Source: Nannobrachium achirus
Taxonomy: Eukaryota > Chordata > Actinopteri > Myctophiformes > Myctophidae
Reading direction: 5' to 3'
NCBI GenBank assembly: GCA_963921795.1
Contig: OY997649.1
Coordinates: 32,544,373 to 32,608,372 of the forward strand
DNA length: 64,000 bases
In this document: positions 8,613 through 59,066 of the stretch, in pieces
How positions within the stretch are numbered: the first letter of the stretch is position 1
Layout: each line of letters begins with the position of its first letter
Notes under the pieces: generated by a model
Database searches by the model: none
What the model was told of the DNA's origin: nothing
The model's input: the letters and a program-made list of their open reading frames with translations, nothing else
Position numbers and translations under genes: made by a program

Positions 8613-8692
8613 AATAGCCGATCGACAAGCTCACAATGCGTCACAGCTGCGATGCGTTGTGAGTTTGTCGATCTGCTATTTTCTGCGAAAGC
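8613..8692. repeat. Hairpin module copy 1
   Basis: Arms ATAGCCGATCGACAAGCTCA and TGAGTTTGTCGATCTGCTAT around a GC-rich centre. The tag GGGCTTGAGTGGTTAA follows at about 8715-8731. Confidence 0.75.
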
Positions 8693-8897
8693 CTTCCCCA
8701 CACAGCACAGATGCTGGGGCTTGAGTGGTTAATCATTGACTCGATACAAGGACGCATCGCATGCTACCCCCACCTCCCCAATAACCCAAATCAATGGTGG
8801 CATTCAGTGGTTTCGAAACCACAATCTAAAAGATAAGGTGGTGTTTGACTTCGCAAATCAATATTCAAAACAGTGAAGTAGAAACTAAAATATCACA

Positions 8898-9040
8898 CAC
8901 GTACACACGCACGCGCACGCACGCACGCACACGCACACGCACACACACACACACGCGCACACACACACACACACACACACACACACACACACACACACAC
9001 ACACACACACACACACACACACACACACACACACACACAC
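8898..9040. repeat. Compound (CACG)n/(CA)n microsatellite
   Basis: Interrupted CACG units pass into pure CA from about 8957. Confidence 0.98.
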
Positions 9041-9426
9041 TGTGGCGGCTCTTCTGGTGATTGCGTAGCAATTTATTCAGTCTGCTGACTTTTTTTATTG
9101 TTTCACTTTTCATCCTGAATGGAGCTTCTCAATTTACAAACTTTATGTTATCTCTTTTAACTATGTCTATATAGCTGACACCTCTAAATATATGCATTTT
9201 TCCTTCATAATTGACAACTGGTATTGCACTACTCCATTTGACCCTGATATTTCAGCACTAACTTCTAAAGTTCTGACATAAAAGAGAAGTAGAATGCGTT
9301 ATATGTTCTCAAAGCCACGGTAACAAAGGCAGAAAAAATGATTGGTGAGCCATTATGAAAACCCAGAGAGAGTTTGGGATCATATACTTTTATATAAGTC
9401 AAAAGGTACTCTCTCTCTCTCACACG

Positions 9427-9480
9427 CAGGCAGGCAGGCAGGCAGGCAGGCAGGCAGGCAGGCAGGCAGGCAGGCAGGCA
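9427..9480. repeat. (CAGG)n microsatellite
   Basis: About 13 CAGG units. Confidence 0.98.
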
Positions 9481-54555: not shown

Positions 54556-56361
54556 AGCTCATGTTCCCACTAGCACCTGCTATCCAACTGATTAAATCAT
54601 TTCTTATCCTGATTCTGCAACTAAAACAAACTAAAAGCAATTATACATAAATATGCAACCTGTACAGTAAAAATAGTAAATGCCATATGTAGCTTATTAT
54701 TGTTGTGACTGGGGAATTACAGTATGTAGATTCAGATCAGTTCTTTAGGGCAGCATATAAAATTACACAATTATTTTCTTCTTGTTAATGAATATGTAGT
54801 GGATTTATTTACAACTCTATTACAACTCATTTCCAAACAGTCTCCTTTCCTGTGTTTTCCCTCTGTTTCAAAATGAAGGTGTTACTGCCCTGCGTAAGTG
54901 AATGCCAAACTTATACAGTCACCCCCATGCTCCTTTTAGTGTTATAAATCAAACATGACATTCTTTAAATAGGGAAATTAATTATTTACACTTTAAGCCA
55001 AAATACCTTGAAGAGGAAAGGAAAAAAAGAATACTGGCACACAATAAGTCATTTCCAGGTGTGAGACTCTGGGCACTCTATTACATAGTCTAGATTTATA
55101 ATGTTCCAGATTTATAAGGTGTAGACTATGAGAAGCTGTATTATGAGTACAATTCTCCTGCTTATACTCTATAACTACAAAGTGCTGGCCACCTTCATTA
55201 ATTGAGAGGATTGAGTTACAGTGAACATGCTGTTGCATCTTCTCTAGATTAAACACGTGTTGGCAATAAGTAACACTTTTCTTCAATGACGGCACAGTGC
55301 CAAGACCTTACTCACTGTAGCAATGTCCATTGAGCATGACTGTGGGCCATTCATTGCCAACACTGAAAACCTGCAATGGCGAACCCACCTGCAAACTGGC
55401 CTCCCTATTTTGGTAATGTTCACAAAAACTTCAAAAATCGAAATCAAATAGCAGATCTACAAGCTCACACGCATCACAGTAGGGCTGAATGGTTGAACTA
55501 TTTATACCAGGAGCTGATGACAGCATTTCCCATTCAGTTACATTGTGTACACTAGAGTTACAAAAGCATAAATCAACGAAGAGGATGCAGATAAACAAAC
55601 TCTGATACAATCTTGACACCTCAGACAGCAGTGTACTGTAAATACACACACCTCTGGTGCAGACTACATGACTAGCATTGCTTCCATAATGTTGTTATCG
55701 TAGTCTTTAAGAGTTATCATACTATTTTGTGGTGTATTGACAGTGGAAACAGAGACTTATGCATCCTGCATTAAATGGCAAAAGCAATATTACACGACAG
55801 GGTGTGCTTTACCTATTGGCACGAGAGTGATGCGGTGGCAATAACCGCGGTAAAGCCACCGCCAAGTGTAATATTGCGATTATACAACAGTTACCATCAA
55901 AATAAAACATAAAAATGAATTCATATTGTGGTGCATTTTGCTCTCAAAATAACAATCTTTCTGCTAGTGTTATCGATCTGTTATCCTGAAAATACATGGT
56001 CTGACAGAGTCACTGTTTACTCAGCCAGTCCAGACCCAACATTGAGATGGCTGTGCGCTAGACAACTTTCCCAAACTGAACACATAGAGAAACAAAACCT
56101 ACCGGTATGATACAGTATGGGATTTTTTTTGCTACGTTTGCTACCACGTCTGCAAACGTCCCATGCAAACTGCTAGCCAGCCACTTAGCCTCTGCCGAGA
56201 CTCCGTCTGATCAGCACAGCAGATTTTTATATTTTGATTAGTTTCAGTTTTGAGAATGGCTAGATGTGCTGTCATGCTTGTTTGAGCACGAGTAGAGAGA
56301 CTATTTCAACCAATCAGATTGCTTGGTTGGAACTACCTAATGTATGTGCCTTAATTCCTCT
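54556..56361. other. Intergenic: mostly unique, half hairpin at 55441
   Basis: Left-arm hairpin module 55441-55480 with tag AGGGCTGAATGGTTGA. An inverted GCAATATTACAC/GTGTAATATTGC pair spans 55783-55875 around GC-rich stems. No gene. Confidence 0.5.
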
Positions 56362-56483
56362 TATAGACCTTTTTCCAGAGTGCTGCCGTGTAGCTGCGGT
56401 GTCGGCACACAGCCGCACACACACATAGGTTCTGCTTGACAGACAGCGCAGATATGGTTGCCGCTCTGAGAAATCGGTCTATA
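56362..56483. mobile_element. Short MITE, ends TATAGACCTTTTTCCAGAG
   Basis: Right end CTGAGAAATCGGTCTATA is the diverged inverse of the left; 122 bp. Confidence 0.55.
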
Positions 56484-58306
56484 GAAAGTAGAAACAACAC
56501 TTTGCTGATGAATACCGCATTACCACATTTGTCTGGTAAGCTACTTTAGACTGTTGTTTTAATACCAACACTAAAATCCATCACACGCTAATTAGTTGGT
56601 TGCAACTGCAACTTAGTTTTGCTGTGAAAGCTCACATACCACATAATTAATCGTGTTGATTAATAATAATCATTTTCTCCACCATTCAAGGTCATGCTAT
56701 CTGCATATATTTGTATTTTTGTAACAAGTGAACAGAGACTTATAGTCTCTTGTGAGTGAGAGCTCCAAGGTAACTCTTTCCCCCCCCTTATTTTTTGCAA
56801 TGAGTAGTACTCACTCAGTATGCAGGGGAGGTCTGTGAGAACCTGATTTATTTATCCCTCAGCCACCCCCCACTGATGTTTTGTTTTTGTTTTTTTCTTT
56901 GCTACTCCTGCTGGTTCTCTAGGTTTGCCAGCTGTCCCCGCCCACTACTACAGGGCCTCGTACCAAACTCACCGGGATGTCCAAACCCAACGCCTTTACC
57001 CCATTAGGAGCCATTTAACACGGGACAGCTTGTCCTTCAGTCGGAGAACGACAAAGTTATTTATTTCCACAAAGGTTTTTTTTTTTTTTTTCACAGTGTG
57101 CGCTGGTTTTGGCACAGCTGCACGTCATGGCCATTCAGCACAGCCTAAAATAAGTAAATTGGGTAATCAAAAATAATATGGCTACCAGTGGTGTGGGGTT
57201 AAAAGTGGAGAGAGGCTATCTACAGTAGCAAGCATGTGTCAGAGACACTCACCATAATGAGGACGCAGGACGGGAACCTGCACCTACTTAATTCAATTCA
57301 TGCCTTTTCGATAGACATTGTCGCTTGACAAAAATGTTTTTTCTTTCTTTTTCAACTGAAAAGAGTAAGGCGAGTCATGCTCTTTTTACTCTCCATAATT
57401 GGCCAGAACCCCATCTTTTTCAGCATAAGGTGGAGAGGTCTATGTTGACTGTCGCTGTACGCTAGTTCCCACTCAGATGACGGCAGGATAATATTCAGAT
57501 CAAGTCACTAGTGATGATCTTAAAGATTATTTGATTGTGCCTGTTCTAATTCTATCAACACAAATTAGATGATTAAAGAACAGTTTCATGTATTTCTTCA
57601 ATAACAGGGGTCTCTTCATCGCATCAGCTCTTGTAAAAAGAAAATACTCTGATTACATTTGTTACCCATCAGAATAGTTTTTCTTCTGTTTAGTAAAGAG
57701 ATGGAGAGACAGGGAGACAGGGAGACCCCTGTCACTGAACAAACGATGCAATGATTACTATCACAATATAGTACTTTATTACGCTTGGTTGAATGCTTGA
57801 TTCTGATTGGTCAATCGCTGAAATCAGCGGCGTGTTATTTCTGGATAATGACCAATGGCCTCAATAACAGACTGATGCCTAATCAACGGCTCATAGCACC
57901 TGGCTGCACTGCGTGAATTTTATGCTGTATCCAACATGACAGTAAACAAACACGTAATGTAATTTAAATTACAACTAAACATTGCTCTCAAGAATGTTTT
58001 TGAAAACATTTGAAGTGAGAAATAGACGATTGCGGTAACCAAAAATGGATTCTATTTGATCAACACTTCCTTGTTTTTTGACGTCGGACTTTCATAATCC
58101 TCCCGGTTGCGCTCGGCGGATGCCCAGTGCACTTGTGGAATACTTTCACGACTGTAAGCAAGGAAATACTTCGTTTTGGTTTGCATGCTCGCACACAGAC
58201 ACACACACACACGCGGTGTTTGTTGACACTTTGTTTGCTAATGGCTTGGTTAGCAATGTTGTGCGCACGGATGAAGCCACAAGTAGGCAGATCCGCTCAT
58301 CTCTAG
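56484..58306. other. Intergenic, mostly unique sequence
   Basis: A possible splice acceptor followed by an open frame at 56924-57175 (+) is noted as a weak candidate only. 57780-57880 (TGATTCTGATTGGTCAAT) is like MITE ends. No supported gene. Confidence 0.45.
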
Positions 58307-58393
58307 TGATTGGTTTAGGTCCTAAACCAATCAAACCGGGGAGAGGGACTTTTTTTTACTTCCCCTAAACTTTAGGGGAAGTCAAAAAAGTCC
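58307..58393. repeat. Two adjacent hairpins
   Basis: TGATTGGTTTAGG/CCTAAACCAATCA (13-bp exact arms, 58307-58333) followed by ACTTCCCCTAAA/TTTAGGGGAAGT with T/A-run and GGGAC/GTCCC extension (58344-58393). Confidence 0.9.
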
Positions 58394-59066
58394 CTCCCCC
58401 CATAAATCATTCAGACAGGGAACAATGTCAGACTCAAGCGTTAGCTGAGTCTGAAATCAGGCTATGGTTTGGCTGGTGTGGTGTAATGTTAGCTAACATT
58501 TGTTAGAAAAGACTATTTTAGTTTTTCCAGATTGTAATGCAAGCAGCTGTAACCTTTTCAACATGACACTAATTCGCGCCGCGTTTCGAGCTTGCAGATC
58601 TTCTACTTTTGATACATTTTGGCAGGCCAGATGATGGTGACTGATGGGCGAAAGTGCTGCTAGTGCTCAACTGTGAAATGATACAGACAGATTACATACT
58701 AGTATTTAAATCACGTAGAATCTTTGCAATATCCTAATGTGACCGCACCCACACCTACCAGCAGCTATCAAAATAACTTCACTCTTTTCTGTGAAACATA
58801 CCATAAATAAAGTGTGTCATATCAGCAATATATACATTATGAGAAGATAGTTTCCATGACTACTGATTTCCATCGTAGCTTTAAAACATTGTGAAGGAAC
58901 TATTGACCGGTCTTTCCTCTACTGCATCATTAGTGCAGTCAAGCATGAGCAAACTGGATGTATAGGTGGCCATGATTGAAACAGAATCACCTTCCATGTT
59001 TTACATTTACTGTTTTGAGAAAATGAATTGGTTTTGTACATCTACACCTCTTTCATACATGCTCGC

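Follow-up and report, generated by a model that had tools for sequence, protein, structure and literature searches.

A short hairpin recurs across the 64-kb stretch of DNA analysed here (hereafter the window) and across the genome from which it comes, and the same hairpin occupies transposon families that are otherwise unrelated. We consider it somewhat more probable than not (roughly 0.55) that this module is a palindromic transposon core, spread as a passenger and reshaped by palindrome instability. It would represent the core, ~83 nt when complete, of an old lineage of miniature inverted-repeat transposons. It would have spread to its several hundred thousand loci chiefly as a passenger, being nested in or captured by successive non-autonomous DNA transposon families, each of which would have multiplied it. 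Once in place, the copies would behave as unstable palindromes, with private deletions removing centre and arms, loops becoming inverted, half-arms duplicated, and one arm copied onto the other.

The module is far more widespread than the window. Allowing up to 2 mismatches, a 20-base arm gave 585,695 matches in the whole genome (1.66 Gb) compared with 1 for a backward control, and a systematic 200-kb genome sample contained 75 hairpin loci (~1.7% of readable bases). With 27 loci in 64 kb, the window has a locus density similar to that of the sample and is thus typical of its genome. Within the window, the 20-base arm at up to 3 mismatches matched 31 times (0 across 100 dinucleotide shuffles), and a 25-base arm profile above 12 bits recovered 42 half-arms (0 in the reversed sequence). 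At 14 bits, half-arms formed 27 loci, 14 with both arms and 13 with one. A preliminary description of the window had reported a repeated hairpin module at about 25 positions. The repeated module is real, as 23 of the 25 positions have at least one arm by the 25-base profile, and those at 29521 and 30664 are degenerate fragments, under the profile threshold and recognised by eye. However, roughly one locus in two is a single or broken arm rather than a hairpin. One site, a single arm at 19348–19372 (−) found by arm search and profile, had been overlooked. Weak one-arm matches at 18509, 24540, 50007 and 50633 possibly occur by chance. Exact and gapped arm patterns had no counterpart in the viral contigs or prokaryote genomes searched.

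Across the genome, the transposon families found to contain the hairpin number at least nine, each with ends of its own. In the window it is held by at least seven families, as had been proposed: the transposon ends named previously were confirmed in the window sequence, and terminal repeats and target-site duplications differ between families, with further hosts found elsewhere in the genome. Host target-site duplications are of three sorts (8-bp hAT-like, TTAA, and 4 bp). Exact 8-bp duplications were read in one copy each of host D (TATGAAAC), type 2 (GTTTACCC) and N4 (GTGTATAA), and also in host F (CTCTACAG) and the TAGGGCATTC family (CTACATTG, copy L049), and those of hosts A and C match at 7 of 8 bases. 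By their 8-bp duplications, these host families are putatively hAT-like. Host B has 4-bp duplications (CTAT, ATTA) and hence was not classed as hAT. The TTAA elements, with a TTAA duplication and terminal inverted repeats at 28690–28819 and similar ends in loci L015 and L028, are by target site and ends putatively of piggyBac or Kolobok type. Hairpin loci fell within transposons more often than random positions (64 of 102 versus 43 of 431), in line with the expected enrichment, although this comparison is partly circular, the host list having been built from hairpin loci.

Host A is represented in the window by an element at 13413–13877 (+) with a truncated hairpin (~13658–13711) and a one-sided TTAACCACTTTAGCCCTA (13640–13657), a copy at 21502–22026 (−) with a hairpin at 21703–21775 and the target-site duplication ACGCTGAA/ACGCTGAT, and an A-like element at 27083–27658 (−) with one arm (27422–27446) and a TTAA-type end (27461–27478). 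Host B (TGTCGGGC...CCCAACA) spans 16946–17176 (+) around a hairpin at 17036–17104, and a second copy, at 42020–42210 (−), has lost one arm and kept the other (42094–42118). Host C (TAGGGATGGGACGATA) occupies 51026–51418 (+), with one arm at 51276–51300 and the duplication GCGTGCAT/GTGTGCAT, and is found in part at 24990–25279 (−), where the TAGGGATGGGACGATA end was identified by eye beside a degenerate hairpin (~24993–25060). Two inverted hairpins are present in host D (CAGGGGCGTCGCACC) at 30593–31072 (+) (~30660–30722, degenerate, and 30935–30993), and host D at 54053–54555 (+) likewise has two (54126–54184 and 54402–54458) and the duplication AGCTCGTG/AGCTCATG. A D copy with degenerate ends lies at 47390–47632 (−; hairpin 47479–47549), and a D-derived stretch at 34766–36009 includes hairpins at 34803–34849 and 35903–35973. 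The type 2 host (CAGTGGTTCTTAACC) extends over 33573–33970 (+) and bears a hairpin (33805–33850) with CATG arms and a repeated half-arm. For the GTTTGGGAACCACTG-ended host N4, with a hairpin at 44692–44759, the left end was not found within the window. The flanking duplications read in the window include GTATAGGA/TTATAGGA.

Elsewhere in the window, a palindrome with arms of 56+56 at 8591–8702 (core 8611–8682) is accompanied by an outward TTAA-type end motif (8715–8732). The complete hairpin at 12830–12900 carries a GACC variant in both arms, with no host ends found, and that at 27809–27879, located by the arm profile, has no host assigned. A degenerate hairpin (14763–14830) has one arm over the profile threshold, and another with a shortened centre (41492–41548) has a TTAA-type end on its right, seen by eye. 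The arm profile also placed single arms at 55445–55469 (+), followed by a diverged TTAA-type end (by eye), and at 58585–58609 (−), of the CTACTTTTGATAC sub-type.

Two nestings can be read directly. The hAT-like host F at 28577–28983 (+), bounded by its exact duplication, contains a hairpin-bearing TTAA element (TTAACCACTTGAA...TTCAAGTGGTTAA, +) with the left hairpin arm at 28735–28759; both ends of the element are present in the window (28690–28819), L015 and L028. In the second case, the TAGGGCATTC family holds a type-2 fragment comprising the hairpin and one type-2 end, a composite that ordinary nesting plus internal deletion can explain because both TAGGGCATTC ends and the 8-bp duplication are present in L049. 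Of the 12 exact AAGTGGTTAA sites in 264 kb, 10 lie within 250 bp of a hairpin and face away from it, and 0 face towards one; with one mismatch allowed (n = 46), 15 face away and 1 faces towards a hairpin. That all transfers of the core took place by nesting or capture is our inference, and it is weakened by hosts B, D, type 2, type 5 and type 7, in which a carrier cannot be seen.

In its complete form the hairpin is a near-perfect palindrome of 83 nt, and over 48 copies the best DNA fold energy was −48.1 kcal/mol (median −28.2). Within host D, higher conservation of the hairpin than of its flanks was not clear (0.88 and 0.97 versus 0.84 to 0.90). Private deletions in the hairpin were found in 15 of 23 copies of one family (among the matches listed), with no two sharing gaps, compared with 2 of 23 for a 55-bp stretch of left flank that played no part in selection. 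These 23 are all the half-match copies among 40 of 577 candidates; since they were selected on a 70-bp right flank that is 100% identical, that flank is no control and only the left 55 bp serves as one. Family B showed no such excess (20 of 40 listed copies; hairpin deletions in 5 of 20, flank deletions in 9 of 20), which narrowed an initial view that deletions are concentrated in hairpins generally. Nor was there support for the notion that copies without the hairpin fail to multiply, two deletion forms having been found in multiple copies: one in 3 exact copies plus 12 more at one mismatch, and a form of B in 127 exact copies, whose recurrence is likely because of a 4-bp repeat at the junction. 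Repeated half-arms were also present in locus L083.

The loop of host-oriented B copies occurs both ways (GGT, 13,183; ACC, 6,784), as do those of the TAGGGCATTC family (GTT and AAC) and host D (ACTCGGT and ACCGAGT), although the two B orientations could also descend from two founders. At the family level, 34 changes were common to both arms versus 9.9 expected (sd 2.9) under a permutation that ignores relatedness. Together, the symmetric changes and both loop orientations point to exchange between arms. Among 20 B copies, a single symmetric pair (copy L056) was found in 17 non-loop changes, and one copy of the 23-copy family (L082) carries a private symmetric T/A change. Host D retains a C/A difference on one side, and the two arms are frequently unlike at position 9. 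Compensating change or gene conversion, as suggested in the preliminary description, is supported in part, by the family-level symmetry and the loops, but private symmetric changes in young copies are rare. From the inverted loops, the family-level changes and the one private change in L082, it appears that one arm was copied onto the other. Centres, in turn, differ in good part through deletions and inversions rather than substitutions, and so not as the structure-keeping change that had been supposed. Palindrome instability can explain why arms match while centres differ, with function unnecessary.

The shape of the module is also what might be expected if the hairpin could move by itself, as a palindromic element of ~79 bp targeting TA (TA|GTGAAAATAGC...GCTATTTTCAC|TA), and had entered every host family in a separate insertion. 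In three hosts the complete forms are of equal length (83 nt with the 6-bp outer prefixes), symmetry fades just beyond, and TA occurs on either side of the hairpin in B, N4 and type 7. However, the ends of the supposed element vary between families. The symmetric bases immediately outside GAAAATAGC also vary, which counts against a single inherited core as a simple explanation. Hairpin-less host copies (9 of 16 other spanning copies, including one from an eight-copy array on contig 15) were considered as empty sites, but on closer reading most of the nine appear to be deletion products with remnants. None is a convincing pre-insertion site, and in L018 and L030 (GGCGAATATTT), which have no remnant, a deletion product or an empty site would both fit. 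Nor was there a fresh solo insertion among the first eight exact-match loci listed (L001–L008, all on contig 1), as their flanks recur in the sample. We regard independent mobility as a tentative and rather doubtful alternative. A more elaborate version, in which the hairpin is a hyperparasitic DNA cassette that enters unrelated families by itself (for example, by insertion at small-palindrome centres or cruciform template switching), raises host copy number and stays perfectly palindromic through arm copying, seems to us distinctly improbable.

Template switching could instead make the hairpin a recombination hub, which stalls replication or breaks and is repaired so that different ends are joined to the core. 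The TAGGGCATTC/type-2 composite, the one-sided TTAA-type ends in hosts A and C, the duplicated half-arms and the inverted loops would all suit such a process; yet nesting with internal deletion suffices for the composite in L049, and in no case was a junction between two families demonstrated within a hairpin, leaving this an unlikely account. Retention for an RNA or DNA structure function that aids the hosts (a small-RNA precursor, for instance, or a protein site) might be suggested by the very stable fold, the symmetric arm changes and the many hosts. We think it very improbable, given that the intact hairpin was lost in 15 of the 23 copies listed above and that the B deletion form reached its 127 copies (albeit with recurrence favoured by the junction repeat), and the window contained nothing that matched an Rfam model of a catalogued structured RNA (microRNA or other) at gathering score. 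Least credible of all is common descent, with every host a sub-family of one element. The same internal hairpin is found throughout, but ends, flanks and target-site duplications (8-bp, 4-bp, TTAA) differ, contradicting a single element, and where flanks are shared (TAGGGCATTC/type 2) the relation is one of nesting.

Angel elements of zebrafish were reportedly described by Izsvak et al. in 1999. As characterised in the available part of a later study, in which symmetric (compensatory) changes were noted in copies within two lncRNAs (Kapusta et al. 2013, PMC3636048), Angel resembles the palindromic core in being short, high-copy, and composed of long inverted repeats able to fold as a stem-loop. 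Angel is treated there as one family, however, whereas the core is common to families with unrelated ends; loop inversion goes unmentioned in that part of the source, and the likeness drawn here concerns form and copy number. Repeated loop inversion, said to be favoured by stem stability, is described for chloroplast hairpins, whose minute inversions (Kelchner and Wendel 1996, cited in PMC3123225) likewise affect the loop of a stem-loop, although these are organelle loci across plants rather than nuclear copies in the thousands that belong to a single family and genome. Mobile elements also insert into palindromes and other elements according to the portion of PMC6911290 available, which concerns plant LTR retrotransposons, unlike the hairpin hosts here. 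The accessible parts of an inverted-repeat survey (PMC13155455) and of PMC2874221 held nothing specific to the hairpin. A hairpin common to transposon families with different ends was not found in the literature, as covered by titles and the starts of abstracts, and searching paper texts for the arm and end letters returned one match, which was unrelated.

Palindromes are known to break and rearrange, but how often they do so in the germ lines of animals is difficult to measure. The genome studied here carries one palindrome and its variants at several hundred thousand sites; the flanks of many are oriented and could serve to date the copies, such that deletion, loop inversion, duplication and arm copying are countable against arm length, age and host. 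In this sense, the copies naturally record the behaviour of hairpin DNA in a germ line. They also provide a clear case of a short core common to transposons of at least three target-site types, and repeat libraries that are split by family ends may hide such shared cores.

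The hairpin, a short palindrome of two near-identical inverted arms around a loop, is a real module of the window: its arm AGCAGATCTACAAGCTCACA had 31 matches at three or fewer mismatches (none in 100 shuffles), and a 25-base arm profile found 42 half-arms versus 0 in the reversed sequence, with a stricter threshold leaving 27 loci, 14 of them with both arms. Across the genome (1,658,514,493 bases in 564 contigs, the window being G000:C12:32544373-32608372), arm matches at two or fewer mismatches numbered 293,019 forward and 292,676 reverse, while a backward-pattern control gave 1 and 0, respectively. 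Its repeats resemble those of a bony fish. Twenty systematic 10-kb stretches contained 109 arms (3 in the reversed control) in 75 loci, or approximately 1.7% of readable bases. Given these genome-wide and sampled counts, the window is typical of its own genome. Eight exact arms in steps of 45 or 90 bp were also observed at G000:C1:3708151-3708575, apparently a tandem array built from the hairpin arm.

The best complete copies from three hosts (L016:4002, L020:9219 and L022:8458, positions within fetched genomic loci) folded as a single 83-nt stem that includes a 6-bp outer prefix. Read inward, flank-to-flank agreement reached background around six to nine bases beyond AAAATAGC, and the bases immediately outside GAAAATAGC (variants TAGT, ATTGT, GCGTGCT, TTTGCC and ATC) matched within families and differed between them. 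Window self-comparison separated four repeated hosts, the non-autonomous transposon families A to D; reading of the sequence added F (28577..28983, +), type 2 and N4, and the genome sample added the TAGGGCTGTCACAATTA, GACTAAAACTAAA-repeat and TAGGGCATTC families. Target-site duplications were exact for F in the window (CTCTACAG) and for genome copies of D (TATGAAAC), type 2 (GTTTACCC) and N4 (GTGTATAA), matched at 7/8 positions for type 2 and C in the window, and were 4 bp long for B (CTAT in L024, ATTA in L020; other copies less clean). Where hosts are termed hAT-like, this is a putative assignment from duplication length and end sequence. Duplications and ends differ among hosts; the module is common to unrelated families, in support of the preliminary description.

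How the hairpin entered these hosts is partly visible. TAGGGCTNAAGTGGTTAA had seven window matches at three or fewer mismatches (0.23 expected), all oriented outward; six lay directly outside a profile-found arm and the seventh adjoined the degenerate hairpin fragment at 29521. In 264 kb there were 12 exact AAGTGGTTAA sites, of which 10 faced away from a hairpin no more than 250 bp off and 0 faced toward one; at one mismatch, 15 of 46 were outward and 1 inward. A two-ended, TTAA-flanked element lies inside host F (window 28690-28819, L015 and L028), and hosts A and C have a TTAA-type end on one side only, that of C being diverged. The TAGGGCATTC family has its own two ends (L049 is bounded by CTACATTG on both sides) and an interior type-2 fragment that carries the hairpin together with a single type-2 end. 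Judged from this arrangement, the hairpins of the TTAA element in F and of type 2 in the TAGGGCATTC family are nested passengers. No carrier was visible for the hairpin in B, D, type 2, type 5 or type 7. An independently mobile bare hairpin is also possible.

Other elements in the window include a minus-strand open frame of 1089 codons at 54-3323 that encodes a reverse transcriptase domain (RVT_1, E 7.7e-22). Adjoining it is another long frame, at 2974-4944 (-), for which Pfam gave no match; the arrangement looks like a DIRS-type retroelement. Another long palindrome occurs at 22563-22884 (161-nt arms, 96% complementarity) and 52705-53014, the two copies 83% alike; no relation to the hairpin was seen. 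An inverted repeat with 239-nt arms (92%) lies at 35168-35665, between two host D type hairpins.

Compensating change or gene conversion had been suggested for the conserved arms, and the arms do covary: in 48 two-arm copies, 34 non-consensus letters were common to both arms, versus a mean of 9.9 (sd 2.9, maximum 21) in 2,000 random re-pairings. Much of this sharing is at family level (e.g., CAAG to CATG, GCTCAC to GCACAC). One copy, at locus L082, carries a private symmetric T/A change, but 20 B copies yielded only one symmetric pair among 17 non-loop changes, a C/A difference persists on one side in D, and the two arms often disagree at arm position 9. Arm symmetry therefore arises more when a family is founded than in individual copies. 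Zebrafish Angel (PMC3636048) offers a precedent, a hairpin transposon with symmetric changes.

Loops occur in both orientations. Host-flank-oriented B copies had GGT in 13,183 cases and its reverse complement ACC in 6,784 (up to two mismatches, possibly within the loop); exact matches alone numbered at least 100 for GGT in contig 1 up to 55 Mb, and at least 100 for ACC over the whole of contig 1 and 27 Mb into contig 2. Both GTT and AAC were present in the TAGGGCATTC family, and ACTCGGT and ACCGAGT in host D. Chloroplast DNA offers a precedent for inverting hairpin loops (PMC3123225).

The claim of hairpin deletion was narrowed, though not reversed, by the controls. A search with a hairpin-less copy gave 577 candidates, and the 40 scored comprised 17 spanning matches (query included) and 23 half matches. 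Junctions varied among nine spanning copies fetched, several retaining short palindrome remnants; L018 and L030 shared one junction with 2-bp microhomology and no remnant. Among the 23 half-match copies, 15 carried deletions, each 2 bp or longer, within the 83-bp hairpin, with gap sets all different, and 2 had flank deletions, the 55 bp left flank being the fair control because the right flank served to select copies. Half-arms were repeated in L083. In family B, hairpin deletions affected 5/20 copies and flank deletions 9/20; the effect is therefore not general. Eight equal-scoring copies of a hairpin-shortened element, about 15 kb apart, occupy G000:C15:54508761-54613173 (L036 read), apparently a tandem segmental duplication.

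In the simplest account, the hairpin is an old palindromic transposon core that travelled with its hosts and was edited through palindrome instability.
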